Positions 17,673 through 42,535 of a stretch of DNA of 42,535 nucleotides are shown piece by piece (the stretch's first letter is position 1; each line of letters begins with the position of its first letter). The notes beneath the pieces are model-generated. The model had not been told where the DNA came from. It saw nothing but the letters and a program-made list of their open reading frames with translations, and did no database searches. The translations under genes and the position numbers were made by a program. This DNA is from Opitutia bacterium. Lineage in GTDB: Bacteria > Verrucomicrobiota > Verrucomicrobiia > Opitutales > Seribacteraceae. The stretch spans positions 1 to 42,535 of the forward strand of contig JABGWD010000002.1 of the NCBI GenBank assembly GCA_018645725.1. The letters run 5' to 3'.

Positions 17673-17781
17673 ACAAGGGGTTCCCTGAGTTCTGACTTTT
17701 TCTTTACCCCTTTCGATAAAGTACTGAAAACAGCAAGGATTCCTTTGACCTGAATCGGTTGAACGTCTTAGGTTCTCGATA

Positions 17782-20527: not shown

Positions 20528-20555
20528 GATGGGAAAGTATTTGATTGGCTAAGGA

Positions 20556-22031: not shown

Positions 22032-22139
22032 CCAAGAAGTCCTTGAGCAAGAAATCAAAAAGAACAACATGAAAGAACTTTACCATCGGAATTTAACGGC
22101 TAGGCTAGAATGATCGCACGAACCCATACCCAACCCTCC

Positions 22140-23117: not shown

Positions 23118-23246
23118 CACCCTTTGGATGGGATTGTCTTGCTTCAAGTAAGTCATCCTGACCTTTCTTTGTCTCTTGCCAAAAGCAGTGCGCCTGCACT
23201 CTACTGATCACCAATACCCTCAAACCCTTCTAACCCAATCATTCAA

Positions 23247-23939: not shown

Positions 23940-23960
23940 AACACCAAAGCCCTCCAGTTT

Positions 23961-24620
23961 ATGAAAAACCTAGCTCTATTTATCTTAGCATCCGCCCTCG
24001 CCCCCTTCGCCATCGCCAAACACCACAAGGGCAAGGACGGATTCGTCTCCCTTTACAACGGCAAGGACCTGACCGGGTGGAAAACCACCGGCAACTGGAT
24101 CCCCCAGAAGGACGGTTCCTTGCTCATCCAGCCCCGTCCCGGAGAAAAGGGCTGGCAGCGCTACGACGACTACCTGACCTCGGTCAAGAAGTACAAGGAC
24201 TTCGTCCTCGAGGTCGAATACAAGTATCCAAAGGGTGGCAACAGCGGCGTATACTTTCGCATCGGCGACCCCAAGGATCCCGTTAAGACAGGTATCGAGT
24301 GCCAGATTCTGGACTCCTTCGGCAAGCCCAACGACAAGATGGGCCATCACGATCATGGCGGTATCATCCGCACGGTCGGGCCGACCAAGAACATGTCGAA
24401 GAAGCCCGGAGAATGGAACAAGATGATCGTTACCTGCAAGGGTCACCACCTGCAAGTGAACCTCAACGGCGAGAAAATCATCGACCACCAACTCAACAAG
24501 AAAGGCGAAGGGAAACAATCCGGCGTCAGTGACCGCCCTTCGGAAGGATACGTTTCATTGCAGGATCACGGGGAACCCAACAACCTTCATTTCCGTAATA
24601 TCCGGATCAAGGAACTCTAA
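23961..24620 (+). CDS. Secreted DUF1080 / 3-keto-disaccharide hydrolase domain protein
   Basis: 219 residues with a signal peptide (MKNLALFILASALAPFAIA) and K-H-H-K-G-K at the mature N-terminus. Domain marks: S-L-Y-N-G-K-D-L-T-G-W (30-40), G-G-N-S-G-V-Y-F-R (92-100), G-I-E-C-Q-I-L-D-S-F-G (111-121), G-E-W-N-K-M-I-V-T-C-K-G, and D-H-G-x-x-N-N-L-H-F-R-N-I-R-I-K-E-L at the end. The histidine cluster M-G-H-H-D-H-G-G in the middle is richer than in its sisters and could bind metal, although this is inference. It is the sixth DUF1080 domain of the window and the last before the serine protease gene, which starts 15 nt downstream. Confidence 0.92.
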   Translation: MKNLALFILASALAPFAIAKHHKGKDGFVSLYNGKDLTGWKTTGNWIPQKDGSLLIQPRPGEKGWQRYDDYLTSVKKYKDFVLEVEYKYPKGGNSGVYFRIGDPKDPVKTGIECQILDSFGKPNDKMGHHDHGGIIRTVGPTKNMSKKPGEWNKMIVTCKGHHLQVNLNGEKIIDHQLNKKGEGKQSGVSDRPSEGYVSLQDHGEPNNLHFRNIRIKEL

Positions 24621-24635
24621 GACCAAGGGCCAGTC

Positions 24636-26072: not shown

Positions 26073-29000
26073 ACGATCAGTGATCCCTTCATCACCCGCC
26101 AGTGTCCGGGAAAGGTGCAAAGGAAAGGATAACGACCCGGTTCCTTGGGAGCCGTAAAGTCGAGCGAAACTTTCTTGTTCGCATTGAGCAAAGGGGTGGA
26201 CCAAATCACCTTGTCGGTATCGGGCACGAATCCCTTGGCATAGGCATCCGGATCCTGGAGCATTTGGTCGGCCAGCAAACCGACCTCGTTTTCCGTTCCC
26301 GGACGGACAATGACCAGGTTATGAATTTGATGATCCGGGTTATCGAAAACAACCTTGAGCTTTTGGCCGGCCTTTACCCGGACCTCGCTCGGTGAAAACG
26401 CCAACTGGTTAGGCACGGCAAGGATACGGATCTCGCCCTCGCTCATCCCGTTCTCCTTGGCATAGGTCTTGGCCATCGCCTTGAGGGAAGCCTCGGTCTT
26501 GGAAACCTCAAGGTCGTCAAGTGCCTTGCCCAAGGGATTGAACAAGTAAACCGGAGCATACCCCCGGGCTCCACGTCCGGGGACGTATCTGGATTCGATC
26601 TGGTTCAGCCCGGGTTGAAGTTCGACCTGAACGTTCCAATCCGAACTCCACCAATTGGCCGAGGAAATAACCGGTACCCCGTTGAGGGAAACCTTAACGT
26701 AACTGTGCTTGATCGACAAAATGGCTCTCTTCTTTGCCGGAGAACTTACGAAGGTACGCATGGTGCCAAGGGAACCGGCCTTGGAACCAAAGACAAACGG
26801 GCGCTCGGGGGTTTCCCCTTCCTTGAGCAACCAGTGGGACAATTTTCCGGCCTCGGGTCTTTCCATCACCGGCACCTCCGGTCCCGTGCCCGAGTAAGCC
26901 CCGTAACTCGCATCCCGGAGGATCGTTTGGAGTGACTTGTCACCCTCAACCTTTACCTGCCCTAAAATCGAGGCATAGGCGGGATCCTTGCACTGGAGGT
27001 GTGAGACGACGTGAATCACTTCGGTTCGCACGCGGGGATGCTCGTCCTTGGCCATCTTGCTCAGGATGGCTTTGGGCTTCTCCAATTGATCTGCCTGAAA
27101 ACGGATCAAATGGGTGGCGGCGGCCCTGATTCTGGAATCTGCAGACTTCAAAAGATGAGCCAAGAGGGACTGTCGGGCCTCCCCTTGGTCATGCAGAATC
27201 CAAAGTGCCTCCAAGATGGACTCGTCCTCCTTGTTTTTCTCCAGCCATGAGTCGAGAACAGGAACGATCCCGGAGGTATGCCTGAGCTTGCGGCGGGCAT
27301 GATCCCGGACGAGATCCTGCGGATGCTTGAGCAATGCAAGCAATTCACCCGTTTTCGCACCCTCGATCTTGGGCCAATCCTTGACTATCGGCTTGCCCTT
27401 GTAGGTAATCCGCCAAATGCGTCCGCATTGCGGATCCCAGCGCGGATCACGCATCGAGTTCTGGGCATGTCCGATGATCCGTGAGCAAAAATCGGACACG
27501 TACATGCCTCCGTCTAGCCCAAAGGCAATGTCTACGGGTCTGAACAATTGATCAGGAGAAGACAAGACGTCCAACCGGTCGCTCCCTTTGAAATATGCTC
27601 CATCGGCCCGGTGTTTGGAAATGGAAACGAAGCACTTCCTAAGCAAAACCGCCGAGGCCATGCCCTGCTGGTACTCATCCGGAAAGTTCGGGCTGGATAT
27701 GACCGCGGCCGCCGAGCCTTTCCCGTAGGCAATGCTGATGGCCCGCTTGAAGGGATGATACACCCCGAAGGGCGTCCAGGGAACGGCATGGCTATCCTGC
27801 ACGAAACCGTCCCCGTACATTTGAAAGAGATTGCCCCACCGGTCCCAAGTGATCTTCCATGGATTGGGGGTCAGGGTTTGGTATTCCCGTTCGACGCTTC
27901 CCTTGCGCAGATCAAACCGGTAGGTCGTGGCGTCGACCCCACGCGTTACCCCGTGCGGAGTCTCCAGTTGGGAACGGTGAAAGACGCCGTCGCAAAACAT
28001 GACGTTGCCCATCGGTCCCATCGCGATCATTCCACCATGGTGAGCATCGGTTACGTCGATTCCGCGCAAGATTTCATTCCTCACGTCTGCCTTTCCGTCT
28101 CCGTTGGCATCCTTCATGAATACGAGTCGGGGTTGATGGGAAATGATCACACCGTCCTTGTGGAAGGCCAGGCCGTCAGGTACGTTCAAACGGTCGGCAA
28201 AGACGGTTGACTTGTCCGCCTTGCCGTCCCGGTCGGTATCCTCCAAGACGATGATTTTGTCATGCGGGACGTCTCCGGGTATGGTACTGGGAAAGGAAGG
28301 CATGGTGACCACCCAAAGCCTGCCTCGTTCGTCAAAAGCGATCTGCTCGGGGTTGCGCAATTCGGGGAACTCCCGTTCGGAGGCAAACAGGTTGACCTCG
28401 TAGCCGTCCGCAACCTTGAAGTTCTCGAGCATCTTTTCCGGAGAAGGAAGAGCAACCGGTTCCCTCTTGATCATTGGCTCTAGGGTCAAGGGACTTTCGT
28501 CCCAAGCGAGGGACGCGTCCCGACACATGGCATGGGTGACCGCATCCGCTTTTGTAGCCAGAGCGTGGTAACGGGGCATCTCGGCGTTGTATTCGCGGGC
28601 CCGGCCACGCACCCCGAAATACAGGACCGTGTTCACGGGACGGACGATCGTTGCCACGAAACCGGCTTTGCGGGAAACCGCCCGGGCAATCTCATCAACC
28701 CGCTTTTTTGCCAACTTGGCATGCACGGACTCCCCCAACAATTTTGCAGACAGGTGAGCGGAAACGATTGAATACCCGAACTCGTTCAAGTGAATCCCGT
28801 TATCCGTCAGCGGCTCGCGCTCCCGGGCATAGGCATCCGAGGTGGGAACGAAAAGATCGACGAACTCGACCTTTCTCTCTTTTGCCACCACTCTCATCGT
28901 ATCAACGTATTTCTTGAGCTCGGCATTGCGCTTGCCGGTGTCCGGATAATGCGGATTGGGAAGCTTCTCCACTGCGATCGGAGAGAGCAGGACGACTTTG

Positions 29001-29398
29001 GCCTCCGGATGCCGTCTTTGCATTTCATTAAGGTATCCGTTCAGGTCGCTCTGAAACTCGCCCAAGCCAACATCCCCACCAAACGATTCATTCATCCCGA
29101 ATCCCAGAACCACGAAATTAGCCGGCCACTCGGCCAGCAATTTCTTCAAGTGATTGACGTAACGTTCCGGTCGCAATCGGTATCCAACTTCATCCCCCGT
29201 CCATGCCAAGCTCCTGAATTCAAGTTTCTTGTCGGGATTAGCCAATTGCAAGGATGCCTCGAACCTCCCGTCCTCCTGTAAGCGCTCGACAAAGGAATTT
29301 CCGTAAAGGAGGATCCTGTCACCCTTTTCGAATTGAAGTTGCGCATGGGCCTGAAAGGCCAACAAGCAAGACAAGGCGAAGAAGAGAATCCTGCTCAT
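26066..29398 (-). CDS. Secreted SGNH hydrolase - PVC propeller - HEAT - cupredoxin fusion
   Basis: 1110 residues with a signal peptide (MSRILFFALSCLLAFQAHA). Residues about 22-230 are an SGNH/GDSL esterase-like domain: L-L-Y-G-N-S-F-V-E-R, G-F-G-M-N-E-S and the catalytic D-N-G-I-H-L-N-E-F-G. About 319-665 is the PVC membrane-bound dehydrogenase-type propeller (P-E-Q-I-A-F-D-E-R-G-R-L-W-V-V-T, I-D-V-T-D-A-H-H-G-G, D-V-L-S-S-P-D-Q-L-F-R-P-V-D). HEAT-like repeats fill about 684-816. The end, from 984, is a plastocyanin/azurin-like domain with all type 1 copper ligands: H1026, C1094, H1099 and M1103. Proteins of this class usually end in a CxxCH cytochrome; none is present here. It is second in a minus-strand operon, 35 nt after the Gfo/Idh gene. 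Confidence 0.88.
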   Translation of the reverse strand: MSRILFFALSCLLAFQAHAQLQFEKGDRILLYGNSFVERLQEDGRFEASLQLANPDKKLEFRSLAWTGDEVGYRLRPERYVNHLKKLLAEWPANFVVLGFGMNESFGGDVGLGEFQSDLNGYLNEMQRRHPEAKVVLLSPIAVEKLPNPHYPDTGKRNAELKKYVDTMRVVAKERKVEFVDLFVPTSDAYAREREPLTDNGIHLNEFGYSIVSAHLSAKLLGESVHAKLAKKRVDEIARAVSRKAGFVATIVRPVNTVLYFGVRGRAREYNAEMPRYHALATKADAVTHAMCRDASLAWDESPLTLEPMIKREPVALPSPEKMLENFKVADGYEVNLFASEREFPELRNPEQIAFDERGRLWVVTMPSFPSTIPGDVPHDKIIVLEDTDRDGKADKSTVFADRLNVPDGLAFHKDGVIISHQPRLVFMKDANGDGKADVRNEILRGIDVTDAHHGGMIAMGPMGNVMFCDGVFHRSQLETPHGVTRGVDATTYRFDLRKGSVEREYQTLTPNPWKITWDRWGNLFQMYGDGFVQDSHAVPWTPFGVYHPFKRAISIAYGKGSAAAVISSPNFPDEYQQGMASAVLLRKCFVSISKHRADGAYFKGSDRLDVLSSPDQLFRPVDIAFGLDGGMYVSDFCSRIIGHAQNSMRDPRWDPQCGRIWRITYKGKPIVKDWPKIEGAKTGELLALLKHPQDLVRDHARRKLRHTSGIVPVLDSWLEKNKEDESILEALWILHDQGEARQSLLAHLLKSADSRIRAAATHLIRFQADQLEKPKAILSKMAKDEHPRVRTEVIHVVSHLQCKDPAYASILGQVKVEGDKSLQTILRDASYGAYSGTGPEVPVMERPEAGKLSHWLLKEGETPERPFVFGSKAGSLGTMRTFVSSPAKKRAILSIKHSYVKVSLNGVPVISSANWWSSDWNVQVELQPGLNQIESRYVPGRGARGYAPVYLFNPLGKALDDLEVSKTEASLKAMAKTYAKENGMSEGEIRILAVPNQLAFSPSEVRVKAGQKLKVVFDNPDHQIHNLVIVRPGTENEVGLLADQMLQDPDAYAKGFVPDTDKVIWSTPLLNANKKVSLDFTAPKEPGRYPFLCTFPGHWRVMKGSLIVY

Positions 29399-30639: not shown

Positions 30640-32682
30640 TTGAAAAAGAAAAAGACAGAAGAGAGGTCGGACCAAGACGACGAACAACCATCGGATGATG
30701 AGTTTGCCATTTTATCGCCCAAGACGGAGTGGTTCTCCTTGGCCTTGTGCTCCTGCCTCTTCCTGATCGCCCCCCTTTATTACTTAAGCCTTACCGCAAA
30801 AGGAAACTGGAACGAAAAAGCTCCACCCCTGCTCGAATCGATCGCCCGCAAGATCTTTTCCTTTCCACTCCAGGACATGGAGGGCTTCATCCCCGTCCGG
30901 ACGGTCAATGCAGAATACAAACTGGTTGTCTTTCTTGCCCTCGCATCAATCGTGACAGGAATTGTTTTTTGTGCCCTTCACTTGAAAAAACGCCTTCTTT
31001 CCATCCCAAAGCCATTACTTATTTTTACCGGATTGTTTCTGGGGAGTGTATTTTTGTCTTCGGTTTTCGCCCACAATTTTCAAAGGGCTTGGGTTTCTTC
31101 CTTGGTTTGGCATTTCGTCCCCGTTCTTTTCGCTTTTTCTTTGGCTCACGTTCATTGGACAAGAAAAAAAATCGCATTTTGCCTGGGCAGCCTCCTAGCC
31201 GGCGGAATTGTTTCGTCCCTCATCGTAATGGACCAGCACTATCAATGGACTGATTGGAGTCCCGGACTGCCCAGAGCGGGATTGGGGGGATTGATTTACA
31301 ACGGAAATTTTGCCGCCGAATACCACGCTCCCCTTCTCCCTATCACCCTTTGCCTTATCTTTTACATTCGTTCCATCGGATTCAGGATAGCCCTCGGTCT
31401 TGTCCTTGCTTTCGTTTTTTTACCCGCGCTATCCCTCTCCCTCGCCCGAGGCGCTTGGGTCGGATTGATGGGAGGTTGCGGTATCACCATGGCCTTGTTT
31501 TTGTTCACTTGGTTTGTTTGGCGAAAGAGAAACCCCGGGAATTCAATTTCGTCCAAATCTTTGGTTCCCCTCGGAGCCCTGCTCGCACTGGCTCTTGCTT
31601 TGCCACTTTACGTCTTCACCTCCCATCACTGGAAAAAAGGCGGGGGGATATACTCTCCCGAGAACTGGGTAAAAGAGGTCTCGTCACCATCTTCTCCTTC
31701 AAGTGCGGTTTCGAAGGAAGTCAAGGAGCTTAGAAGCATTACCGAAATCAGTGACGAGGACACGAATATCCAAAGGCGCCTCGTTCTTTGGCAAGATGCT
31801 CTGCTGGCCTGTCTTTCATCCGATTTTTTTTTAGGGAAAGGAACGGATCACTATGAACTGCACTTTCACGAAAGCGCCAAACTCTCCGACAAAACTACCG
31901 GTGAAATACTCGTACGGTTCGTTCACAATGATTTCATCCAAACCCTCTATGAAAATGGACTGATCGGATTGGTAGGTTTTCTTGGAATTTGGGGATGGGT
32001 GTTATGGAAAGCAATTGTATCCTGTATGGATCGGGTCAGAGAAGAAGATCTTCAGGGCCTCGGCCTTCGACTCGGGCTTGTTTCGGCTTCCCTGGTTTTA
32101 CTTGTAGAGTCTTTCTTTGAATTCCCCACCCGCTCACCCTGTGCCCTCATGGTCGGTTGGACGTCTTTGGGTCTCCTCCTTGGCATTTTGCTTCAGGAAA
32201 AAACTTCCTCGGACGGATCCTCCGTGAAAAACATCTTCCGACCAGGGCCAAGGCTCAACCTTGCCCTCGGGGCTCTCGGGGTACTGATCATTCCCTATGG
32301 ATGCCTATTGGCAAAAGACCTTTTTTGGACCAACGTATATCACGTTCAAGGCCGAGTTGCCGGGGACTACGGGGAAAAGGACAAGAGCCTGGCATTCCAC
32401 CGAAAGGCAATTTCCTACGCGCCATGGGAACATCATTCCCGGAAGTTCGAGTGTTATTACTTGCTCACGCATCTCAAACGCATTCCTCAAGCGCAAGACG
32501 CCATAGCGGAAACCCTCCGGGTTCACCCGGGTTGCCTGGTTGCTCACCAAAACAAGATCGCCGTCTACCTTAACAACGGAATGGAAACCGAGGCCCGCCA
32601 AGCTTATCAAGAGATGAAAAAGGCCGCCCCTTATCATGAATTCACCAAAAAAGAGGGCAAACGCTTCCAGTCAGGCAAATAA
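30640..32682 (+). CDS. O-antigen ligase/polymerase-like membrane protein with C-terminal TPRs
   Basis: About 680 residues with roughly 13 predicted transmembrane segments between residues 25 and 545. The Wzy_C/WaaL signature is visible: an L-A-R-G-A-W-V-G-L segment after a membrane helix, a large external loop (about 320-425), and F-V-H-N-D-F-I-Q-T-L-Y-E-N-G-L-I-G-L near residue 430. The last 110 residues look like TPRs (F-H-R-K-A-I-S-Y-A-P-W, A-I-A-E-T-L-R-V-H-P-G). It would join or polymerise a lipid-linked surface glycan. The start is TTG at 30640, immediately after an in-frame TAG; it overlaps (TTGA) the stop of a six-codon frame beginning ATG at 30623, which may couple translation. Start confidence is moderate. 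A probable terminator follows. Confidence 0.85.
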   Translation: MKKKKTEERSDQDDEQPSDDEFAILSPKTEWFSLALCSCLFLIAPLYYLSLTAKGNWNEKAPPLLESIARKIFSFPLQDMEGFIPVRTVNAEYKLVVFLALASIVTGIVFCALHLKKRLLSIPKPLLIFTGLFLGSVFLSSVFAHNFQRAWVSSLVWHFVPVLFAFSLAHVHWTRKKIAFCLGSLLAGGIVSSLIVMDQHYQWTDWSPGLPRAGLGGLIYNGNFAAEYHAPLLPITLCLIFYIRSIGFRIALGLVLAFVFLPALSLSLARGAWVGLMGGCGITMALFLFTWFVWRKRNPGNSISSKSLVPLGALLALALALPLYVFTSHHWKKGGGIYSPENWVKEVSSPSSPSSAVSKEVKELRSITEISDEDTNIQRRLVLWQDALLACLSSDFFLGKGTDHYELHFHESAKLSDKTTGEILVRFVHNDFIQTLYENGLIGLVGFLGIWGWVLWKAIVSCMDRVREEDLQGLGLRLGLVSASLVLLVESFFEFPTRSPCALMVGWTSLGLLLGILLQEKTSSDGSSVKNIFRPGPRLNLALGALGVLIIPYGCLLAKDLFWTNVYHVQGRVAGDYGEKDKSLAFHRKAISYAPWEHHSRKFECYYLLTHLKRIPQAQDAIAETLRVHPGCLVAHQNKIAVYLNNGMETEARQAYQEMKKAAPYHEFTKKEGKRFQSGK

Positions 32683-32762: not shown

Positions 32763-35700
32763 ATGATCACAAAACTGCCCGCTCATGCACACTCTGTCAC
32801 AAGACTTTCGACCTTCTTGGCAGGAATTTCAATCACCGCATTGTGCGTCACGTTCGGCGCCCTTCACTCCTACGCCGCCAACTCGATCACGATTCAGTCA
32901 CCTACCGGTGGATCAAACGTCACTGCAAGCAATGACAACTTGACCGTCAACGTGACCTATTCATCGGGCGGAGGAGGGTCTCAAACTCCGACTTGGGCAT
33001 ACCGCATTGATTCCGGATTCCCCGGGTACGGCAGCCAGCCAGGTGGAACCCAAATTACCGGTTCAACCTTTGCAAATGACTTTCTCAGCGGCCAATCCTA
33101 TGGAATGCGACAAATAAACGTCGCCCTGCTCGATCAAGGGGGCAATCTCCATAATCCGCCCATTGTTCAGACCATTTCAGTCAACTACCAGTCCGGAGGA
33201 GGAGGCAATCAGTCCAATGGGGGGGGATCCATCGTCATCACCTCACCGGGCAACGGCTCGAACGCGGACCAGCACACCGATCTGACGGTTACCGTACAGT
33301 ACTCATCGGGCGGAGGAGGATCTCAAACCCCAACATGGGCATACCGCATTGATTCCGGATTCCCCGGGTACGGGAGTTCGCACGGGGGCACGCAAGTTAC
33401 CGGGGTCACAAACGCAAATGATTTCCTCAGCGGCCAATCGAACGGCATGCGTCAGGTTCATGTCGCCCTTCTTGATCAAAACGGCAACCTACACAACTCG
33501 CCGATCACCGCATCCGTTCAAGTCAATTACCAGTCTAGCGGCGGCGGAAACCAGTCCGGAGGAGGAGGCAATCAGTCCAATGGGGGGGAATCCATCGTCA
33601 TTACCTCACCGGGCAACGGCTCGAACGCAGACCAGCACACCGATCTGACGGTTACCGTACAGTACTCATCGGGCGGAGGAGGATCTCAAACCCCAACTTG
33701 GGCATACCGCATTGATTCCGGATTCCCCGGGTACGGGAGCCAGCCAGGTGGAACCCAAATTACCGGTTCAACCTTTGCAAATGATTTTCTCAACGGCCAA
33801 TCCTATGGAATGCGACAAGTAAACGTCGCCCTGCTCGACCAAGGGGGCAACCTGCACAACCCGCCCATCGTGCAGACCATTTCAGTCAACTACCAGTCCG
33901 CCGGCGGCGGCTATCAGTCCGGTGGCGGAGGCTACCAGTCCGATAGCGGAGACTACCAGTCCGATGGCGGAGGCTACCAGTCGGACAGCGGAGGTTCCGG
34001 TTACACGGGTCCTTATCAATTCCCGACGGGCGACTTCAAAACCGACACTCGAAATGCCCTCTTTGATGATTTCATCGAGTTCAAAGGATTGCAATCGGTA
34101 GGAAAGCTCAAACACGATTACAATACTTCAACCTACTTCAACCAAAGCATCGACACACTGATCAACCAACTCATCCCTTTGAAAATACCTCCATCGACTT
34201 CCAGAGGTGATGCAGTGGATGCTTGGATTGCTGCAAACTTCAGTCAATCCGACCACTTCGATCATCACAAGACGATGCAATCCTTCAACTACGCCATAGT
34301 TGCAAACGTAGACCTCGAGAAATCTTCCGAACTCAAGGCATTGGCCGCCAATCATGGTTCGATTTACTTTCAGGTCTACGTGGACCAGAACGTTACCGCG
34401 TCCGGAAAACTGCAAAGTCATTCCATCTGGGCCTTGTCCATCGAGAATGGAGACAATGACCGTTCCAACCTCATTGTCGATATGGCGGGAAAGGTGTACA
34501 ATGGAGATTTCGACAGTTATTGGTTCAATACCCACGGAATCGAAACCTGGAACAGCAGCCATTGGCATGAGACCAGTTATTCGACCAGTTCGGCCGGGAT
34601 CGATTCCCTCCTTCTCGCCCACCCTGTGATCTTCGACCCCACGGCCGAAGTTCATACCATCAAGCCTTTTGATTTCATCTCGGATGGACAAGTCGACTTG
34701 AAAAGCCCTGCCGCGTTGAGCGTTTTGGCCAAAGACCATAAGCGGATATACTTTCAAACCTTTTATTTCCCCGAAAACGTCATTGACCAAGGTCAGCAAA
34801 CCGCTGCCTTTGATCCGCTTGACCTGATCGCAGGACAAGAACGGGATCAAGGAATTTACCAATCGGTTTCAGGTGGATACCAGTCGGATGCCGGTGGACA
34901 CCAAACTCCCGGAATGGCTTACCAGTCCACAGGCGGGGGCTTTGTTCCCTACACGGGACCTTACACCGGCCCAACCTACGATTTCAAAATCGATACGCGG
35001 AATGCCCTCTTCGACGATTTCATTGAGACCGTCGGTTCAAACTCGGTCGCCAAGCTCAAGTCCGACTACAATACGACCAAAGCCTTCAATGGCAGCATAG
35101 ACGTATTGACCGCTACGCTTCCGGCATTGGACGTTCCCCCTTCCACTGCCCGGGGTGATGCCGTCGACCATTGGATCAAGGAAAGCTTCGACCTGGTCGG
35201 CGACCTCGACCCCAACCACGAACCGGCTTTCGCCTGGGCTCTTTCGATCGAGGATGCCAATGGAAACAAGAATGATCTCGTGGTGGATATGTTTGGCAAG
35301 GTATACGATGCCGATTTCGAAAGCTATTGGTTGGCCGTATACGGTGTCCCTACTCATAACGATCCAAATTGGAGCGAGATCGAGTATGACGCCACGACCG
35401 AAGGAATAGCCAAGCTCTACCAAGAGCATCCTTTCATCGATCCTGGAATCGTCATGGAAAACCTTCACAAGCTTGCCGTTTTGGAAACCAACGACCCGCA
35501 AATCCAAGGGAACGTCATCCAATTGAGTGGGTCCCTTCTCGAAACCAATGGAACCGACGTCATGCGGATCGGGTTCCTCGTTTCCTCTCACGGACATCCC
35601 TTCGTGAACGACCCCCATTCCCAAGTCATCTTGGCTACGACCCAAAACAATATGATCTCGGCAAGCCATACCGTTTCAAGCGGAGGTACTTACTACGTCC

Positions 35701-36107
35701 GTTCTTTCGCCGAGACAAAGGGAGGCATTTCCGAGGGACCTGTTCGAAGGATTGAGATCTTCCTCGATTCTCATTCTGGCAGCGACCCGCAAGTCAAAGC
35801 TCTTTCCCTCCTCAAGGAGGGGACCAAAGAAATGCCCGGCGGTTGGAGAGAAAGTAGCTGGTTCGGCCTTTACCTCGATCATGGAAACGGGTGGATTTAC
35901 CATCAGATCCACGGTTACCTCTACTTGGCCGCAGATGGAAACAATGGCATATGGGCCTATGATCAGGAACGCAGGTGGTTTTGGTCTACCAAGGAATTGT
36001 ACCCCTACGTCTACCAAGCAGACAAAGCTACTTGGTTGTACATGCTGGGAGTCAACAACGGCAAAGCCGTCTTTTATAATTACGCAACCAGTCAGGTTGA
36101 GCACTAA
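32763..36107 (+). CDS. Large modular secreted surface protein with heptad linkers and aromatic C-terminal domain
   Basis: 1114 residues, not assignable to a named family. A signal peptide of about 38 residues ends at S-Y-A-A. Three beta-rich modules of about 100 aa follow (residues 41-376), each with Q-T-P-T-W-A-Y-R-I-D-S-G-F-P-G-Y-G and L-L-D-Q-x-G-N-L-H, probably Ig-like. They are joined by [Y/N]-Q-S-x-x-x-G heptads. Then come two copies of an unknown domain starting F-K-x-D-T-R-N-A-L-F-D-D-F-I-E (about 425-625 and 739-895), separated by more heptads, a fibronectin-III-like region (about 908-1000, T-Y-Y-V-R-S-F-A-E) and a Trp/Tyr-rich tail (1026-1114). The tail and Fn3-like region recur in the 36867-39365 product. 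An extracellular matrix or adhesin role is inferred. Few cysteines occur. Confidence 0.85.
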   Translation: MITKLPAHAHSVTRLSTFLAGISITALCVTFGALHSYAANSITIQSPTGGSNVTASNDNLTVNVTYSSGGGGSQTPTWAYRIDSGFPGYGSQPGGTQITGSTFANDFLSGQSYGMRQINVALLDQGGNLHNPPIVQTISVNYQSGGGGNQSNGGGSIVITSPGNGSNADQHTDLTVTVQYSSGGGGSQTPTWAYRIDSGFPGYGSSHGGTQVTGVTNANDFLSGQSNGMRQVHVALLDQNGNLHNSPITASVQVNYQSSGGGNQSGGGGNQSNGGESIVITSPGNGSNADQHTDLTVTVQYSSGGGGSQTPTWAYRIDSGFPGYGSQPGGTQITGSTFANDFLNGQSYGMRQVNVALLDQGGNLHNPPIVQTISVNYQSAGGGYQSGGGGYQSDSGDYQSDGGGYQSDSGGSGYTGPYQFPTGDFKTDTRNALFDDFIEFKGLQSVGKLKHDYNTSTYFNQSIDTLINQLIPLKIPPSTSRGDAVDAWIAANFSQSDHFDHHKTMQSFNYAIVANVDLEKSSELKALAANHGSIYFQVYVDQNVTASGKLQSHSIWALSIENGDNDRSNLIVDMAGKVYNGDFDSYWFNTHGIETWNSSHWHETSYSTSSAGIDSLLLAHPVIFDPTAEVHTIKPFDFISDGQVDLKSPAALSVLAKDHKRIYFQTFYFPENVIDQGQQTAAFDPLDLIAGQERDQGIYQSVSGGYQSDAGGHQTPGMAYQSTGGGFVPYTGPYTGPTYDFKIDTRNALFDDFIETVGSNSVAKLKSDYNTTKAFNGSIDVLTATLPALDVPPSTARGDAVDHWIKESFDLVGDLDPNHEPAFAWALSIEDANGNKNDLVVDMFGKVYDADFESYWLAVYGVPTHNDPNWSEIEYDATTEGIAKLYQEHPFIDPGIVMENLHKLAVLETNDPQIQGNVIQLSGSLLETNGTDVMRIGFLVSSHGHPFVNDPHSQVILATTQNNMISASHTVSSGGTYYVRSFAETKGGISEGPVRRIEIFLDSHSGSDPQVKALSLLKEGTKEMPGGWRESSWFGLYLDHGNGWIYHQIHGYLYLAADGNNGIWAYDQERRWFWSTKELYPYVYQADKATWLYMLGVNNGKAVFYNYATSQVEH
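33186..33227 (+). repeat. Heptapeptide linker, two 21-bp units
   Basis: Codes for Y-Q-S-G-G-G-G and N-Q-S-N-G-G-G between modules 1 and 2, in the common register [Y/N]-Q-S-x-x-x-G. Confidence 0.85.
33528..33590 (+). repeat. Heptapeptide linker, three 21-bp units
   Basis: Codes for Y-Q-S-S-G-G-G, N-Q-S-G-G-G-G and N-Q-S-N-G-G-E between modules 2 and 3, one unit longer than the preceding linker. Confidence 0.85.
33891..33995 (+). repeat. Heptapeptide linker, five 21-bp units
   Basis: Five units in register after module 3, all beginning Y-Q-S: A-G-G-G, G-G-G-G, D-S-G-D, D-G-G-G and D-S-G-G follow in turn. Aspartate appears in the last three, making this linker acidic. A Tyr/Pro-containing bridge, G-Y-T-G-P-Y, leads to the next domain. 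Confidence 0.88.
34026..35447 (+). repeat. Duplicated unknown domain within the surface protein
   Basis: Copy A (about 34026-34640) and copy B (about 34977-35447) share F-K-x-D-T-R-N-A-L-F-D-D-F-I-E, D-Y-N-T, P-P-S-T-x-R-G-D-A-V-D-x-W-I, W-A-L-S-I-E, V-D-M-x-G-K-V-Y and a late H-P. Copy B lacks about 45 residues present in copy A, including S-I-Y-F-Q-V-Y-V-D-Q-N-V. A similar segment, R-I-Y-F-Q-T-F-Y-F-P-E-N-V, stands alone between the copies near 34740-34790. No known family is recognised. Confidence 0.8.
34857..34940 (+). repeat. Heptapeptide linker, four degenerate 21-bp units
   Basis: Units Y-Q-S-V-S-G-G, Y-Q-S-D-A-G-G, H-Q-T-P-G-M-A and Y-Q-S-T-G-G-G separate the two copies of the unknown domain. 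The third shows the Q-T-P variant that dominates in the gene at the right edge. Confidence 0.8.
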
Positions 36108-36161
36108 AGGCTACCTTTTTCCAAGGTTCGTCGCGAACGCTGACGAGATGCAAATGTCGGC

Positions 36162-36824
36162 TTGCAATATCCTCTTTTGATCAAAAGGATTGTAACCGCC
36201 TTGAATTCTCATTTGACCCATTTATCAAAGATCTTTTGCCGACCCCTTGTCAAAAGAAGTCTTTACCTCACCCTGTTGGTTTGCCTCTTCACAATTGACT
36301 CGCTCTATCTGCATGGAAACCCGCCTCCTTCCTTGAAGGATTTCCATGGACTCAAGCTCAATTTTTTTCATGAGGAAACCGGGAGACGGTTTTTGAAGGT
36401 GAGTTACGAAGACGCGGTCTCCGAAAACAAAAAGATCGGATTTCTCACGATGAATCTCGCTTTTCTCAAGATCAAGGATCTCAAGATCGAGATGGATGCC
36501 AGGTATATCGACTGTGCGAAAATTTCATCTCTCTTCGAGAAAGTGTCCACACAACGAGGCATCCGATACGCCGTGGCCGAACCCATAAATTTAATCATTC
36601 GAAGCCCCGAATCAAGCATACGGGTTTTGGGACAAAAGGGAAAATTTACCGCAGACGGTTCTTTGAGGGTTTGGGGAGAGGTAAGGCTCTTCAATGGAAC
36701 GCTATCCAAAGAATTGGAAAGTGTTTCCATTACCACCGACCCATCCACAAACGGTCTGCTTCTTACCGGAGGCAAAGACCAAGCCCCCTTCTTATCCGTC
36801 CCCCTCTCCAAACAACAGCCCTGA
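36162..36824 (+). CDS. Membrane-anchored or secreted protein of unknown function (weak LptC-like features)
   Basis: About 220 residues if it starts at TTG 36162; TTG 36177 is an alternative and no ATG fits, so the start is uncertain. A hydrophobic segment preceded by V-K-R (about residues 29-50, S-L-Y-L-T-L-L-V-C-L-F-T-I) should be a signal anchor. The rest is beta-rich with alternating hydrophobic strands: L-K-L-N-F-F-H-E-E-T-G-R-R-F-L-K-V-S, L-K-I-K-D-L-K-I-E-M-D, G-K-F-T-A-D-G-S-L-R-V-W-G-E-V-R. This pattern is reminiscent of LptC/OstA-type folds involved in lipopolysaccharide export, but no diagnostic motif is seen. It lies 54 nt after the modular protein and 42 nt before the LRR protein, so the three may form one operon. 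Confidence 0.6.
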   Translation: MQYPLLIKRIVTALNSHLTHLSKIFCRPLVKRSLYLTLLVCLFTIDSLYLHGNPPPSLKDFHGLKLNFFHEETGRRFLKVSYEDAVSENKKIGFLTMNLAFLKIKDLKIEMDARYIDCAKISSLFEKVSTQRGIRYAVAEPINLIIRSPESSIRVLGQKGKFTADGSLRVWGEVRLFNGTLSKELESVSITTDPSTNGLLLTGGKDQAPFLSVPLSKQQP

Positions 36825-36866
36825 TTCGCTTGGTTCTCCATAACCTGCCAGTGCCCCTCCAATATC

Positions 36867-39365
36867 ATGAAAATTCTATCCACACTCTCTGCAATAAGCG
36901 CTTTCCTTTTGCCCGCATCGGTTACCTTTGCCCAAGACTCCACTGATATCGTCTTCGAGGACCCTATGATCGAAGCCGCCGCTCGCGAACAACTCAAGTG
37001 GTCAGGACTGGCCAATGACCAACCGGTCACCCAAAGCCATCTTGAAAACGTCACCTATCTTTGGTTTGACGAGGATGGAGAGGATCGAGTCAGGAACCTG
37101 AATGATTTGCGACACTTCACCAACCTGCGATCATTGGAAATATGGAATGCTTCAGGCATTACGAGCTTTGAGCCCCTTTGGAAAGTTGATTCGATCAGAT
37201 ACCTGTATGTTTACGGAGCGAGGGACCCTGACTTTTCCGGTATTTCCGGTCTCTCCAAATTACGAATCCTTGATCTCTCGGATTGCTCTCTGAAGAATCT
37301 TGGTTTTCTTGTTTCAGCCGACTTTACCGAACTGCATTCTCTTATCCTGGAAGCAAATCACCTGGACCTGACTGAAGACTCGAACAGTTCCCTGCAAATA
37401 AAGACACTCAAGAACCTGGTGGAAGGAAATCGTCAAACCAAGATTGAGGCGGGGCTTTACGTTGAGGAAAATGGACGGGGGAAATTGCATCTCGATCCAC
37501 TTAGTTTCATGATGATGGAACCGTGGAGCACTGACCCTGCGGTCCATTACGACATGCAAATCCCCAAGTCAGTGCAAAATTTGGCAGACGAGATTTCCCG
37601 AACAGAGAAAACACTGCTCGAGAAACCACACGACCCATTGGCCAACCTGCTTCAAGGAATCCATACTTTTTTCAACATTGCGGAATCAAATCAGACTCAC
37701 GGTCTCAAGGAATTCCTGATTTCCTTGGGCGTAGAACCAAGCATACGGTCATTCACCTTGGCCGACGCCTCCCTTGCCGGCAACTTTGCCTTCGAACTGA
37801 ATCGTGATTTCAACTCCAGTTTGTTTGCCAATCACATGGAGGCCGGGATCATTCCCGCACTTGTGGAAACCGAATCGCACTTCGCCCGGATTCCCGTGAA
37901 CAGTGTGATTAACCTCGAACCGGAATTCACCGGTACGGAGGAAATCATTTCGGTCGACTATGCCGACGTTCTGGTCCTCAGGTCGATGGTAAAAATCCTG
38001 TCTGCATTGGCCAGCATGCAATCTGCGTATGACTGGAACCTGAATGCGGGGTTTGTCAAGGATCAGGATGGAGAGGATGCCAATACCACGATGCAAACCT
38101 TTCGCGCCCACAACCCGAATCTCTTTGGAATACGCGACAAGGAACAGTTGGCAAAAGCCCGCCGGTTCCTGGAAGACGGAATTGCTCTCTACCAGATTGC
38201 ATCCCCCATCCTCACCCATGAGTCCAGACTCGGGTACGATGACCAACCGTATCCGGACAGGCTCTTCGTCATCGGGAACGATTCCCTCGAAGACGAACGC
38301 GAGTTCAGGGAAGACTTGGATGATCTGCTCGACGCCCTCCGCGAACCCTACCATCTCGACTCCGATGACGAAGGCACCGGGACAATCGACCTGAATCAAT
38401 TCTTCGCGGGTAAGGTCGACCTCGCTCAACTGCTACCCGATTCCTCCGGGGATCGGTTCGAAACCTATCAATTCAGGGACCCTACCTTCGGTGGGCTCTT
38501 TCCAAGGCTTAACCCGAAAAGGCTTTCCTCCATCCTGTTCGAGGAAGACTTGGTGGCAGACCAGGAACCACAACGGCACGACACCCTGACGGAGGCCATC
38601 ACTCACTTCGACCCCAATGCCTACCTGTCTCTCAACCAAGATCTTCAGGCGCAATACGGCGCCAATGCCGGCACTGCATTGGAACACTTCAAGAATTTTG
38701 GATTCTGGGAACAAAGAAGGTACTTTTTATGGCCCTTCGAAAGCGTTGATTTTCCAATCAGCCTGACCGAACCCACGGTCGTCAATGGACAGGTTGTCTT
38801 GCTCAACGGACGTTTGCTGAGCACTGGCGGATCCAATTCCGTAAAAGTCGGGTTCGTCATCTCCTCCGAAGGTTTGCTCCCCCGCTATGACTTGGGATGG
38901 GAAGTTCATCAAGCGGCATTGAGCACCCAAAATGGATTTTCCCACGCCTATCAACCGTTGAAAAGCAATACCACTTATTATTATCGCGCCTATGCTGAAA
39001 ACGAAGCAGGCCGCTGGTTCGGTTCAGTCAAGAGATTCAAATCCGTTGGGGCTCAAGCCGACCAAAATTCCTTGTTCGGACAAGCCCGCTCCCTCGGGAA
39101 CGGTTGGTATGAAAGCCCGTGGTTCGGGATTCTCAATTTACCGGTCAACGGATGGTCTTATCATTTTGATCTTGGTTGGATCTATTTGCCTGAAAGTCAG
39201 CAGGAAGGAGTCTGGGTATGGTCTGACCAACGAAAAGGTTGGATTTGGACCAAATCGGACGTTTGGCCCCACCTTTGGGAACACAACCAGGCAAGTTGGC
39301 TATATTTCAAGAAGATAGACAGCCAACCGCACTTCTTCAATTTCGCTTCCGAGTCCTACGAATAG
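36867..39365 (+). CDS. Secreted LRR-containing surface protein with Fn3-like and aromatic C-terminal domain
   Basis: 832 residues with a signal peptide (MKILSTLSAISAFLLPASVTFA). Residues about 79-171 carry leucine-rich repeats: L-R-H-F-T-N-L-R-S-L-E-I-W-N-A, L-S-K-L-R-I-L-D-L-S-D-C-S-L-K-N-L. The long middle part (about 175-560) is acidic and mostly helical with no recognised family. Near 577-620 lies a D-P-N-A-Y-L-S-L-N-Q-D-L motif with a following H-F-K-N-F-G-F-W-E-x-R, known from repeats in other bacterial surface proteins. A fibronectin-like stretch (about 635-728, T-Y-Y-Y-R-A-Y-A-E-N-E-A-G) and a Trp-rich tail (743-832, S-P-W-F-G, N-G-W-S-Y-H, L-G-W-I-Y-L, W-V-W-S, W-I-W-T) match the ending of the 32763-36107 product. 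Probable cell-surface role. Confidence 0.82.
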   Translation: MKILSTLSAISAFLLPASVTFAQDSTDIVFEDPMIEAAAREQLKWSGLANDQPVTQSHLENVTYLWFDEDGEDRVRNLNDLRHFTNLRSLEIWNASGITSFEPLWKVDSIRYLYVYGARDPDFSGISGLSKLRILDLSDCSLKNLGFLVSADFTELHSLILEANHLDLTEDSNSSLQIKTLKNLVEGNRQTKIEAGLYVEENGRGKLHLDPLSFMMMEPWSTDPAVHYDMQIPKSVQNLADEISRTEKTLLEKPHDPLANLLQGIHTFFNIAESNQTHGLKEFLISLGVEPSIRSFTLADASLAGNFAFELNRDFNSSLFANHMEAGIIPALVETESHFARIPVNSVINLEPEFTGTEEIISVDYADVLVLRSMVKILSALASMQSAYDWNLNAGFVKDQDGEDANTTMQTFRAHNPNLFGIRDKEQLAKARRFLEDGIALYQIASPILTHESRLGYDDQPYPDRLFVIGNDSLEDEREFREDLDDLLDALREPYHLDSDDEGTGTIDLNQFFAGKVDLAQLLPDSSGDRFETYQFRDPTFGGLFPRLNPKRLSSILFEEDLVADQEPQRHDTLTEAITHFDPNAYLSLNQDLQAQYGANAGTALEHFKNFGFWEQRRYFLWPFESVDFPISLTEPTVVNGQVVLLNGRLLSTGGSNSVKVGFVISSEGLLPRYDLGWEVHQAALSTQNGFSHAYQPLKSNTTYYYRAYAENEAGRWFGSVKRFKSVGAQADQNSLFGQARSLGNGWYESPWFGILNLPVNGWSYHFDLGWIYLPESQQEGVWVWSDQRKGWIWTKSDVWPHLWEHNQASWLYFKKIDSQPHFFNFASESYE

Positions 39366-39422
39366 TCGGTTATTGATATTTTGTTCACTTTGGATTGTCC
39401 CTGACTGCCGGGTACTCGAATC

Positions 39423-40217
39423 ATGAGAATCTACGGCATACAGGCAGATCTTGAGTGGGAGGACAAGGATGCGAACTTCACGAAAATTCGCTCCCTGTTG
39501 GATGACAAAATGATCCAAACGGAATCCCTGATCGTTCTGCCCGAGACCTTTTCCACGGGTTTCAGCATGAACCTGAAGGTAACCGCAATGAACGAACCCG
39601 GGCAGACGGAATCTTTCTTGTCCGGGTTGGCCCAAGACAAGAAATGCTGGGTTACGGGCGGATTGATCGAGCCAACCGCCGATGTTCAAAAAGGGATCAA
39701 TCGTTCGGTCACCTTTTCCCCAATCGGTGAAAAACTCTCCGGTTATGGAAAAGTTCAACCCGCCGCCATCTACCGGGAAGATGAAGTTCACGAACCCGGT
39801 GATCGGGTCGATGTCTTTGCGCTCGGTGGTTTCCAGGCCTGTCCGCTCATCTGTTATGACTTGCGCTTCCCCGAGCTCTTTCGCATCGGGATGCAAAAAG
39901 AAGCAAACCTGTTCATCGTAATCGCCTGCTGGCCGAAAATCCGGATAGAACACTGGATCACCCTGTTAAAGGCACGGGCCATCGAGAACCTTTCCTATGT
40001 CATTGGCATCAACCGCGTGGGTTCCGATCCCAACCTGGTATATGGCGGGAGATCCCTGATCATCGATCCAAAGGGAGAAATTTTGACTGATGGCGGGGAG
40101 GAAGAAAGTGTCGTGGAAGTGGAAATCGATCCGAAATTCGTCGAACAATGGCGGGAAGAATTTCCCGTGCTCAATCATGCTCGCCCCGAATTCCTTCCAC
40201 CGAAACACAGTGCTTAG
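39423..40217 (+). CDS. Carbon-nitrogen hydrolase (nitrilase superfamily), omega-amidase-like
   Basis: 264 residues with no signal peptide, so cytoplasmic. The Glu-Lys-Cys triad is complete: E41 in V-L-P-E-T-F-S-T-G-F, K110 in S-G-Y-G-K-V-Q-P, and C144 in L-I-C-Y-D-L-R-F-P-E-L-F. The T-F-S-T-G-F and Y-D-L-R-F-P blocks point to the YafV/omega-amidase (Nit2-like) branch, which deaminates alpha-keto acid amides such as 2-oxoglutaramate as metabolite repair. In the usual family K-x-H, the residue after Lys-Val is Gln rather than His here. It interrupts the run of surface-protein genes and is probably unrelated to them. Standard family length; start ATG at 39423 is well supported. Confidence 0.92.
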   Translation: MRIYGIQADLEWEDKDANFTKIRSLLDDKMIQTESLIVLPETFSTGFSMNLKVTAMNEPGQTESFLSGLAQDKKCWVTGGLIEPTADVQKGINRSVTFSPIGEKLSGYGKVQPAAIYREDEVHEPGDRVDVFALGGFQACPLICYDLRFPELFRIGMQKEANLFIVIACWPKIRIEHWITLLKARAIENLSYVIGINRVGSDPNLVYGGRSLIIDPKGEILTDGGEEESVVEVEIDPKFVEQWREEFPVLNHARPEFLPPKHSA

Positions 40218-40381
40218 AGAAGACCGTACAAATCTCAATATTTTCGTTACGAGTTGCCCTGCCTTGGCACCTTGATGTTTATATTTGTCATTAAGTGTTT
40301 TTTCACATACACTTACAAGGTAAGGGGAGTGAATCGGAGCATATTGCAGGCTTGCCTTATCATTGCTTATCAAAACTTAAA

Positions 40382-42535
40382 ATGAACACAGACCATAATT
40401 CATTTCGTACTTGGCTATTGCCGATCCTTTTTTGCTGTCTTTGTGGAAATCTCCCTGCGCAACAATGGCTAACCGTAAGAGATGGCAATACAAGCTCCCC
40501 TTATTATACTTTCAAGACGACTGCGCATGCACTCATAGATATCTCAACATACGGCTTTGAGCGGGGGCAATCCTATGCTTTCCTGCCCCAAGGAGTTTCC
40601 ACCAATCACCCCTTCATGATCGGTGAACACAATGGTGATCTGAATTCATCGCTTTTTTCCGTTGTCGGTGGGGGCACTCCGATACCCCTTATCAACAATA
40701 CCAGCAACCTGCAAATAACCATTCCGAGCAACTACAGCGGGGACTTGGTTTATTTCTCAACCGCCAACACCTCCGTTCACTACCACCTCAAAATCGTAGA
40801 TCCCCCGGGTGGAGGCTATCAGTCTTCCAGTGGCACCTACCAACCGGTATATGACCTAAACTCCTCTCACATATCCTCCCTCGCTGTTCAGGTGACAAAC
40901 TCCCTGCCCGGCAAATACGCCTTCTTTAATCATAACAATAACGACGGTTCTTCGGAGATCAGGTTTAATTACATGCATGTAAGCAACAACCAATGGCAAG
41001 ATGCGTCGTTCGGATACTATGTCGCAAAGCCCAGTCAATTTCCCACTATTCCTCACATCTACGATTATCTTCATTCCATTAACTTAAGTCCCGTTAATGG
41101 CTACAAACCAGCAGGAGTCGTCTACCAAAGCTCTGGAGGAGGCAATCAGTCGGGCGGCGGGGGGAACAACACTCCGCAGTACGAAACGCAATCAACCCTC
41201 ATGGTCGACCAATCGACTTCTAATACGGGAATCCCTTATCCAGGGAACGGTGCAACCTGGTATCAAAGCTTTACTGCTGTGAATCCGTCCAAATTGCAAA
41301 AATTTGCCTTTGTGACCAACGGTGCCTTTACAGCCTCGGCTACCGTAAAAATCAGGGAAGGAGAAGGCGTCACCGGCAATGTACTTCACACAGGTACTTG
41401 GACTGGAATTGGAAGCAACACCAATACCTATAATGAATATGTCATCGATAACGACGTTGTTCTGACTCAGGGACAAAAATATACCATACAACTGGAAAAT
41501 CAGACAGCCGGGGGCTTTTTGGGATCTAATTCAAATCAATATGCAGGTGGTAAGTTCCATCATTCCGGTTATGGGGGCGAATACGGAGATTTAAAAATGA
41601 AGATCTGGGTTTTGTTGCAAACTCAGCCTGCAGGCGGGACGATCGCCATCACCGCACCGGGCAACGGTTCCAACGCCGACCCGGACACCGACCTAACGGT
41701 CACCGTACAGTACGCCTCGGGCGCAGGTGGGTCTCAAACCCCAACTTGGGCATACCGCATAGATTCCGGATTCCCCGGGTACGGCAGTCCGCATGGAGGA
41801 ACCCAAATTACCGGAGTAACCACGGCAAACGACTTCCTCAGCGGCCAATCGAACGGCATGCGCCAGGTTAACGTCGCCCTGCTTGACCAAGCTGGCAACC
41901 TACACAACCCGCCCATCGTTCAGACCCTTTCGGTAAACTATCAGTCGGGTGGAGGAGGCAATCAGTCGGGCGGCGGTGGATACCAATCATCCGGAGGCGG
42001 CACCATCGTCATTACCGCACCGGGCAACGGATCGAACGCAGACCCCGACACCGACCTTACGGTTACCGTACAGTACGCCTCGGGCGGAGGTGGGTCTCAA
42101 ACTCCGACATGGGCATACCGCATCGATTCCGGATTCCCCGGATACGGCAGCCCGCACGGGGGCACCCAGGTTACCGGGGTCACGAGCGCAAATGACTTCC
42201 TCAACGGCCAACCCAACGGAATGCGCCAAGTTCACGTTGCCCTTCTTGATCAAAACGGCAACCTGCACAACTCGCCGATCACCGCATCCGTTCAGGTCAA
42301 CTACCAATCTGCCGGCGGAGGCAATCAGTCCGGCGGCGGTGGATATCAAACTCCGGGGAACGGCTACCAGACTCCGGGGAACGGCTACCAAAGCCCGGGC
42401 GACGGCTATCAATCACCAGGCAACGGTTATCAGACTCCGGGGAACGGCTACCAGACTCCGGGGAACGGTTATCAATCACCAGGCAACGGCTACCAGACTC
42501 CGGGGAACGGTTATCAATCACCAGGCAACGGTTAT
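40382..42535 (+). CDS. Large modular secreted protein with heptad linkers, 5' part (runs off right edge)
   Basis: 718 codons from ATG 40382 stay open to the edge. A signal peptide ends near N-L-P-A-Q-Q. Residues about 28-140 are beta-rich with Y-A-F-L-P-Q-G-V-S-T-N-H-P-F-M-I-G and G-D-L-V-Y-F-S, resembling a cupredoxin-like fold but without Cys and Met ligands. A second unknown domain (about 155-245) and a beta-sandwich domain (about 270-415, S-F-T-A-V-N-P-S-K-L-Q-K-F-A-F) follow, then two copies of the 100-aa module also found in the 32763-36107 product, and at least eleven heptads. No family name is justified for the whole. A structural extracellular role is inferred from repeats, signal peptide and shared modules. 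The true length and C-terminus are unknown. Confidence 0.85.
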   Translation, partial: MNTDHNSFRTWLLPILFCCLCGNLPAQQWLTVRDGNTSSPYYTFKTTAHALIDISTYGFERGQSYAFLPQGVSTNHPFMIGEHNGDLNSSLFSVVGGGTPIPLINNTSNLQITIPSNYSGDLVYFSTANTSVHYHLKIVDPPGGGYQSSSGTYQPVYDLNSSHISSLAVQVTNSLPGKYAFFNHNNNDGSSEIRFNYMHVSNNQWQDASFGYYVAKPSQFPTIPHIYDYLHSINLSPVNGYKPAGVVYQSSGGGNQSGGGGNNTPQYETQSTLMVDQSTSNTGIPYPGNGATWYQSFTAVNPSKLQKFAFVTNGAFTASATVKIREGEGVTGNVLHTGTWTGIGSNTNTYNEYVIDNDVVLTQGQKYTIQLENQTAGGFLGSNSNQYAGGKFHHSGYGGEYGDLKMKIWVLLQTQPAGGTIAITAPGNGSNADPDTDLTVTVQYASGAGGSQTPTWAYRIDSGFPGYGSPHGGTQITGVTTANDFLSGQSNGMRQVNVALLDQAGNLHNPPIVQTLSVNYQSGGGGNQSGGGGYQSSGGGTIVITAPGNGSNADPDTDLTVTVQYASGGGGSQTPTWAYRIDSGFPGYGSPHGGTQVTGVTSANDFLNGQPNGMRQVHVALLDQNGNLHNSPITASVQVNYQSAGGGNQSGGGGYQTPGNGYQTPGNGYQSPGDGYQSPGNGYQTPGNGYQTPGNGYQSPGNGYQTPGNGYQSPGNGY
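41639..42301 (+). repeat. Two ~300-bp modules (copies 4 and 5 of the shared unit)
   Basis: Module 4 spans 41639-41938 and module 5 42002-42301, both exactly 100 aa and beginning T-I-[AV]-I-T-A-P-G-N-G-S-N-A-D. They share Q-T-P-T-W-A-Y-R-I-D-S-G-F-P-G-Y-G with the three modules 8 kb upstream. The 3' half of module 5 is closest to module 2, with L-H-N-S-P-I-T-A-S-V-Q-V-N. Confidence 0.9.
41939..42001 (+). repeat. Heptapeptide linker, three 21-bp units
   Basis: Codes for Y-Q-S-G-G-G-G, N-Q-S-G-G-G-G and Y-Q-S-S-G-G-G between modules 4 and 5, in the same register as the linkers of the other gene. Confidence 0.85.
42302..42535 (+). repeat. Expanded 21-bp / heptapeptide tandem repeat, at least 11 units, cut by the edge
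   Basis: The first two units match the Gly-rich linker type; from 42344 nine units of Y-Q-[T/S]-P-G-[N/D]-G follow, and an eleventh-plus Tyr is cut by the edge. Two synonymous DNA variants alternate (CAGACTCCGGGGAAC and CAATCACCAGGCAAC), which suggests expansion by duplicating one- and two-unit blocks. Confidence 0.93.

Follow-up and report, generated by a model that had tools for sequence, protein, structure and literature searches.

A Wzy_C ligase-like gene linked to heptad-repeat, surface-type proteins in an Opitutia bacterium: a candidate protein O-glycosylation locus

Introduction

The closest described counterparts of the locus reported here are membrane enzymes of the Wzy_C type that modify exported proteins. 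In Acinetobacter, the Wzy_C enzyme gene pglL lies beside, and is co-directional with, comP, whose product is an exported acceptor; 21 of 31 pglL genes adjoin a pilin acceptor, and PglL requires a turn directly after the acceptor Ser (PMC3643930). The S-layer O-oligosaccharyltransferases WsfB and WsaB (Paenibacillus alvei, Geobacillus stearothermophilus) share the Wzy_C domain and act on abundant surface proteins, namely the S-layer proteins of Gram-positive bacteria, in which two to four sites are known; the S-layer glycan is attached through Tyr or through Ser/Thr, and both WsfB and PglL have a C-terminal TPR region (PMC2943079). No description of a protein O-glycosylation system in Verrucomicrobiota was found in a limited literature search.

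C-terminal sorting and anchor domains such as PEP-CTERM, the T9SS CTD and LPXTG form a second point of comparison, since in each case a genome encodes dozens of exported proteins that have little in common beyond one C-terminal domain. A third is provided by the bacterial Ig-like and Fn3 domains (Pfam Big_7 and relatives), which are beta sandwiches. I describe here a locus whose elements, namely an oligosaccharyltransferase-acceptor type of gene pair, Ig-like modules and Gly-rich linkers, are of known kinds, while the library searches turned up neither their combination nor the form of the heptads nor the C-terminal domain. A repeat protein that had lacked an explanation thereby becomes the candidate acceptor of a neighbouring enzyme, a pairing that can be tested.

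Results

Layout of the locus

The window, that is, the whole stretch of DNA analysed (42,535 nucleotides), is contig C352 of an assembly of 470 contigs (3.9 Mb, 93% complete). The nearest named genomes that carry the ligase gene, some of them MAGs and others from single cells, bear the labels Opitutia, Opitutales or Verrucomicrobia(-ota), and their isolate-type names, together with the usual origin of such collections, suggest a marine habitat. The genes of the locus are as follows.

30640-32682, + strand: Wzy_C membrane protein with a C-terminal TPR-like region, 680 aa (Pfam Wzy_C, orthologues, invariant residues), hereafter the ligase
32763-36107, + strand: protein 1, 1114 aa; signal peptide, three Ig-like modules, heptad linkers, duplicated internal unit, Fn3-like domain, tail
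36162-36824, + strand: small ORF between proteins 1 and 2, with a hydrophobic N-terminus and no family match
36867-39365, + strand: protein 2, 832 aa; secreted, LRR-like N-terminal part, Fn3-like domain, tail
39423-40217, + strand: CN-hydrolase (omega-amidase-like), a flanking gene kept at the locus in relatives
40382-42535, + strand: protein 3, 718 aa, open at the contig end; signal peptide, further modules, two Ig-like modules, long heptad array

The three ORFs are present as the original prediction described them (32763-36107, 36867-39365 and 40382 to the edge). All three proteins have hydrophobic, signal-peptide-like N-termini and lack a C-terminal membrane segment. Ahead of the locus (16368-29398) lie genes for two sulfatases, two 3-keto-disaccharide hydrolases, a DUF1501 protein, a GDSL lipase/DUF7133/cupredoxin fusion and a trypsin-PDZ-PA14 protein, a set consistent with the use of sulfated polysaccharides.

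The repeated module of proteins 1 and 3

The 100-residue module said to be common to proteins 1 and 3 was recovered in five copies of about 100-104 aa with 70-91% identity, and protein 1 also holds a different internal unit in two copies.

32883-33194, + strand: Ig/Fn3-like module, copy 1, protein 1
33228-33536, + strand: Ig/Fn3-like module, copy 2, protein 1
33591-33899, + strand: Ig/Fn3-like module, copy 3, protein 1
41639-41947, + strand: Ig/Fn3-like module, protein 3
42002-42310, + strand: Ig/Fn3-like module, protein 3
34002-34631, + strand: internal unit A of protein 1, starting YTGPYQFPTGDF, end approximate
34950-35453, + strand: internal unit B of protein 1, second copy of unit A

The AlphaFold2 model of the module is a beta sandwich (pLDDT 88, pTM 0.80) whose top matches in the PDB are Ig/Fn3-like modules, with weak E-values (best 0.0023); as modelled, it is an ordinary Ig/Fn3-type sandwich. 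It resembles Big_7 weakly but reaches no curated family cut-off: the whole protein scored 16.7 bits against the 24.1 required by Big_7, and single modules gave no match. It is also confined to few genomes, with matches at E<=0.01 in 7 of the 42 genomes of the family, in two genera, one of the seven being weak and in a broken frame (G030). The module was rejected as the chief novelty of the locus because it is an Ig/Fn3-like sandwich present in few genomes.

The duplicated internal unit of protein 1 (34002, 34950) is absent from the original prediction. It was recognized by side-by-side reading, self-BLAST giving no match, and relatives of unit A are present in proteins of G004 and G026. The start of protein 3 (40382-41600) has a cupredoxin-like beginning, found also in G037:C20 and G034:C13, and one further unit common to G011:C225 and G026:C70.

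Identity of the ligase

The ligase matched Pfam Wzy_C (PF04932) with 52.0 bits against a cut-off of 31.7 (57.5 bits in the genome search), and on this sequence match it is assigned to the Wzy_C superfamily (O-antigen ligase/O-oligosaccharyltransferase). Orthologues were found in 16 of the 42 family genomes, with 39-76% identity over the aligned set; R270, R380 and H429, which were likened by motif to E. coli R215, R288 and H338, are invariant across 15 of them. A ligase profile aligned with the catalytic region of the solved WaaL structure (7tpg), matching R-x-x-x-W and H-N-D with a weak E-value of 0.019. Similarity of the C-terminus to TPR_16 was below cut-off (E=0.045), and the profile matched designed TPR proteins weakly (E 0.005-0.09). 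PglL_A (PF15864) gave no match in the ligase (hmmscan, E<=1), and PilO too is without the PglL_A motif (PMC3643930).

A Wzy_C match cannot by itself tell WaaL, a Wzy polymerase and a protein oligosaccharyltransferase apart, and PglL_A is absent. The main rival to the glycosylation proposed below, possible but less probable, is therefore that the ligase acts on a surface polysaccharide such as O-antigen, capsule or EPS, by attachment or by polymerisation, and that the proteins perhaps hold this polymer non-covalently. The heptads would then be plain flexible spacers, and the genes would be neighbours because they serve one surface programme or were inherited as one block. Against this, the locus holds no polysaccharide-synthesis (LPS/EPS) genes, the neighbours of the ligase being sulfatases, an oxidoreductase and hydrolases. 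A second Wzy_C protein is encoded elsewhere in the same genome.

Linkage of the ligase to heptad proteins across relatives

The neighbourhoods of all 16 ligase orthologues were read; two (G011, G039) were cut by contig ends, leaving 14 readable loci. In 12 of these 14 the immediate same-strand neighbour of the ligase, tens of bases away, is a protein that bears the tail, the module or both, and in most cases heptads as well. A place beside an exported candidate acceptor and, judged by the neighbours named above, outside LPS loci is shared with PglL-type O-oligosaccharyltransferases. The pair occurs in three gene contexts: oxidoreductase-ligase-protein (G000/G018/G032, protein downstream), protein-ligase(-CN-hydrolase) (G017/G022/G023/G026/G028/G030/G034/G035, eight genomes, protein upstream), and tail protein-ligase-module protein (G004, another genus). 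The neighbours in G018 and G032 end at a contig edge before any tail, and that in G028 is truncated, with a tail and no clear Y-heptads. The two exceptions (G021, G037) carry divergent ligases, grouped together in the ligase tree, without an adjacent candidate acceptor, a point that favours a polysaccharide ligase.

The pair is also missing together, which, like its retention in three contexts, counts against that reading. In 10 ligase-negative genomes the CN-hydrolase/aldo-keto-reductase locus is readable, and both the ligase and the heptad protein are absent; in G038 all that is left of the ligase is a remnant, a 105-aa ORF matching ligase residues 610-646, and the heptad protein is absent. 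Heptad arrays were sought with two strict DNA patterns, the reversed control patterns being almost silent, and were found in 11 genomes, 10 of the 16 that are ligase-positive and 1 of the 26 that are ligase-negative. The resulting table (10/6/1/25) gives a Fisher p=5e-5 for the family, and that for the genus alone (9/5/0/13) p=4e-4; both values ignore kinship and physical linkage contributes to them, and since the genomes are related and mostly incomplete the counts are not independent. The original prediction mentioned, as background, that the modular proteins follow an O-antigen-ligase-like gene, and this holds. Adjacency in 12 of 14 loci and co-absence make the ligase part of the system. 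Because its synteny is kept and it is absent together with the heptad proteins, it is the most informative part of the locus.

The sole ligase-negative genome with heptads (G009) encodes, at C34 (L152) 2-2014, a tail protein with a very long acidic Y-H-[S/T]-G-D-E-G array. The CN-hydrolase and the aldo/keto reductase were considered as parts of the system and rejected, as both persist where the ligase and heptad proteins are missing; the CN-hydrolase is thus probably outside it.

Heptad linkers as candidate acceptors

Three heptad linkers lie in the window.

33891-33995, + strand: heptad linker array, protein 1, 21-bp DNA period, 5 copies
34857-34943, + strand: second heptad linker, protein 1 (YQSVSGG YQSDAGG HQTPGMA YQSTGGG)
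42302-42535, + strand: heptad array, protein 3; the contig breaks within it and it resumes on contig C44

Protein 1 contains 11 [YN]Q[ST]xxxG heptads and protein 3 contains 16, whereas shuffled sequences average 0.2-0.25 (maximum 3); consecutive pairs number 5 and 13, respectively, with none in 1000 shuffles. The description of the linkers as made only of whole heptads is right as to the heptads, but "only" slightly overstates the case, as YQSDSGD, HQTPGMA and similar units occur. The broader claim, that these are secreted proteins of a modular surface type whose Tyr/Gln/Gly linkers are flexible, is supported. All heptad proteins inspected bear the tail, or end at a contig edge or masked stretch.

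When all genomes are compared, the repeat reads Y-x-[S/T]-x-x-x-G, Gln at position 2 being a local dialect; the dialects include YQSPGNG, YSSPGSG, YSSGAGG, YQSDDGG and YGTPDDG. Among 114 distinct Y/N-anchored heptads, position 1 is Y in 94%, position 2 Q in 43%, position 3 S/T in 85%, position 4 P/G in 74% and position 7 G in 68%. An N-glycosylation sequon (N-Q-S/T) was rejected as the main idea because position 1 is Y, not N, in those 94%.

On the precedent of PglL and WsfB, and with the Wzy_C and (weak) TPR elements of the ligase in mind, glycosylation of the heptads is proposed. The modular proteins would be exported and displayed on the surface, with Ig/Fn3-type sandwiches spaced by Gly-rich Y-x-[S/T]-[P/G]-x-x-G linkers, and the tail would anchor or sort them at the cell envelope. 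The ligase would be a protein O-oligosaccharyltransferase moving a lipid-linked glycan en bloc after protein export, and the regularly spaced heptad Ser/Thr (or Tyr) residues would be its acceptors, yielding mucin-like glycosylated spacers. By analogy with these enzymes, there is about an even chance that the Wzy_C/TPR ligase glycosylates the heptad linkers, which makes this the most likely of the readings. A fuller version is more tentative, namely an O-glycosylation system specific to Verrucomicrobiota, with a Wzy_C/TPR transferase dedicated to it and every heptad modified on Tyr or Ser/Thr. It would give mucin-like surface glycoproteins with a new order-wide C-terminal anchor domain, the heptads drifting in sequence from species to species while acceptor and turn positions are kept.

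As in pglL/comP, the candidate sites lie in flexible sequence with Pro or a turn next to Ser/Thr, but here a large modular protein with heptad repeats takes the place of the pilin as candidate acceptor, and the ligase is without the PglL_A match. Unlike those of WsfB/WsaB, the candidate sites occur every seven residues in linkers, and in a Gram-negative-type phylum. In favour of glycosylation count the pairing and joint absence described above, the lack of polysaccharide-synthesis genes beside the ligase and the second Wzy_C protein elsewhere in the genome. In addition, S/T at position 3 and the turn-former at position 4 are kept while the heptad otherwise drifts, which also speaks against plain spacers. 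On the other side, flexible linkers of any sort tend to be enriched in S/T and Gly, tandem 21-bp DNA repeats can homogenise S/T content through duplication, and the missing PglL_A match, the acceptor-free ligases of G021 and G037 and the G009 heptads without a detected ligase all weigh against it.

The original prediction had instead proposed that the proteins form an extracellular matrix, a sheath or an adhesive, with flexible linkers between rigid modules; in such a structure the Tyr/Gln linkers might be cross-linked (dityrosine or transglutaminase-type) or self-associate. Tyr/Gln-rich heptads in three neighbouring secreted proteins would fit, as would Tyr being the most frequent anchor residue in all dialects found by the Y/N-anchored search. 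However, the heptad Gln is not conserved, being missing from the G030, G009 and G037 dialects, there is no cross-linking enzyme among the annotated neighbours, and the occurrence of the tail on single proteins whose passengers are unrelated does not suit a matrix of its own. A matrix, sheath or adhesive is unlikely, and linker glycosylation is the better-supported working model.

Contigs often break in or near heptad or module repeats (window 42344-42535; G022:C25, G034:C66, G026:C70/C244, G032:C190, G011:C225), and the lengths and counts of heptad and module proteins are therefore underestimated in MAGs. The heptads YSSPGSG/YSSPGNG of G030:C204 (L115) 3-1169 resemble the RNA polymerase II tail YSPTSPS in form, a likeness for which no homology is claimed.

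The aromatic C-terminal tail

Proteins 1 and 2 end in a shared region.

35454-35837, + strand: Fn3-like domain and linker, protein 1 (AlphaFold2 pLDDT 90, top PDB matches Fn3 domains)
35841-36086, + strand: aromatic C-terminal tail domain, protein 1
39102-39347, + strand: aromatic C-terminal tail domain, protein 2

That protein 2 has the Fn3-like and tail region of protein 1 was borne out (31% identity over 203 aa, E=4e-27). The tail is an all-beta domain of about 83 aa, mostly C-terminal and sometimes internal, whose predicted beta strands and hairpins contain many Trp and Tyr residues. With a profile built from 24 tails of this genome, 36 copies were counted in it; of 25 distinct copies, 20 end <=16 residues before the stop. 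The profile matches 42 of 42 family genomes, 44 of 132 order genomes sampled, and 7 of 289 in the phylum sample, five of these in the same order. The passengers include LRR-like, cadherin, trypsin, M23 peptidase, FG-GAP/laminin-G, GH core and BspA-like proteins. The notion of a local family thus applies to the rare module but not to the tail, a genus-to-order-wide domain on many unrelated passengers.

Searches of the tail gave nothing credible in Pfam (best E 0.03, for one of 24 tails), at best one tail at E=0.004 in NCBIfam (none on the A5 set), and no match among PDB sequences; a literature search found no relevant paper describing it. The AlphaFold2 model of Fn3-like domain plus tail has pLDDT 90, the tail being all-beta, but the overall pTM of 0.49 makes the domain arrangement unreliable. 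In the PDB fold search the Fn3 domain took all top matches, and because the query included that domain the search is uninformative on the tail.

From its position and its sharing among proteins, the tail probably anchors or sorts proteins at the cell envelope. In contrast to PEP-CTERM, T9SS CTD and LPXTG, it is an 83-aa aromatic beta domain, sometimes internal, without a C-terminal hydrophobic helix, and no cognate sortase-like enzyme was identified for it. The analysis defines an uncatalogued C-terminal domain on tens of exported proteins, in many family genomes and parts of the order, and naming it would help to annotate exported proteins that curated families miss. The tail is present in all family genomes, with or without the ligase, which is compatible with a polysaccharide ligase; the related-locus scan was seeded with the ligase, the tail alignment being too variable as a seed.

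The aromatic residues of the tail raise the further idea that the bacterium is a marine polysaccharide degrader and that, on its surface, tail and Ig/Fn3 modules bind glycans from algae, as a capture device or enzyme scaffold. The sulfatases and 3-keto-disaccharide hydrolases upstream would suit this, as would one tail protein with a glycosyl-hydrolase core, another with laminin-G-like domains, and the weak likeness in structure between the Fn3/Ig part and domains of the CBM31, CBM56 and BT4663 types. Yet proteins 1-3 contain no above-threshold Pfam carbohydrate-binding family, many passengers are non-carbohydrate, and the coupling to the ligase is left unexplained, which makes glycan capture quite improbable, the least probable of the readings considered.

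Continuation of protein 3

Contig C44 opens in protein 3's heptads, in matching register, and shares the last 17 bp of the window. The ORF runs on into an Fn3-like domain and tail and then stops; beyond it lie a convergent aldo/keto reductase gene and an ATPase gene. In the relative G018 a heptad-tail protein is convergent with the equivalent aldo/keto reductase, in agreement with the C352-C44 gene order. From the heptad start, the overlap and the G018 gene order, protein 3 very probably continues on C44 and thus bears the tail.

The aldo/keto reductase gene on C44 (L088) is adjoined by JetA/JetB/JetC genes (Wadjet-type condensin; 2007-7619, - strand; JetC E=2e-264, PADLOC). A JetC-like ATPase gene lies beside the reductase in many relatives too, and the locus looks core, not mobile.
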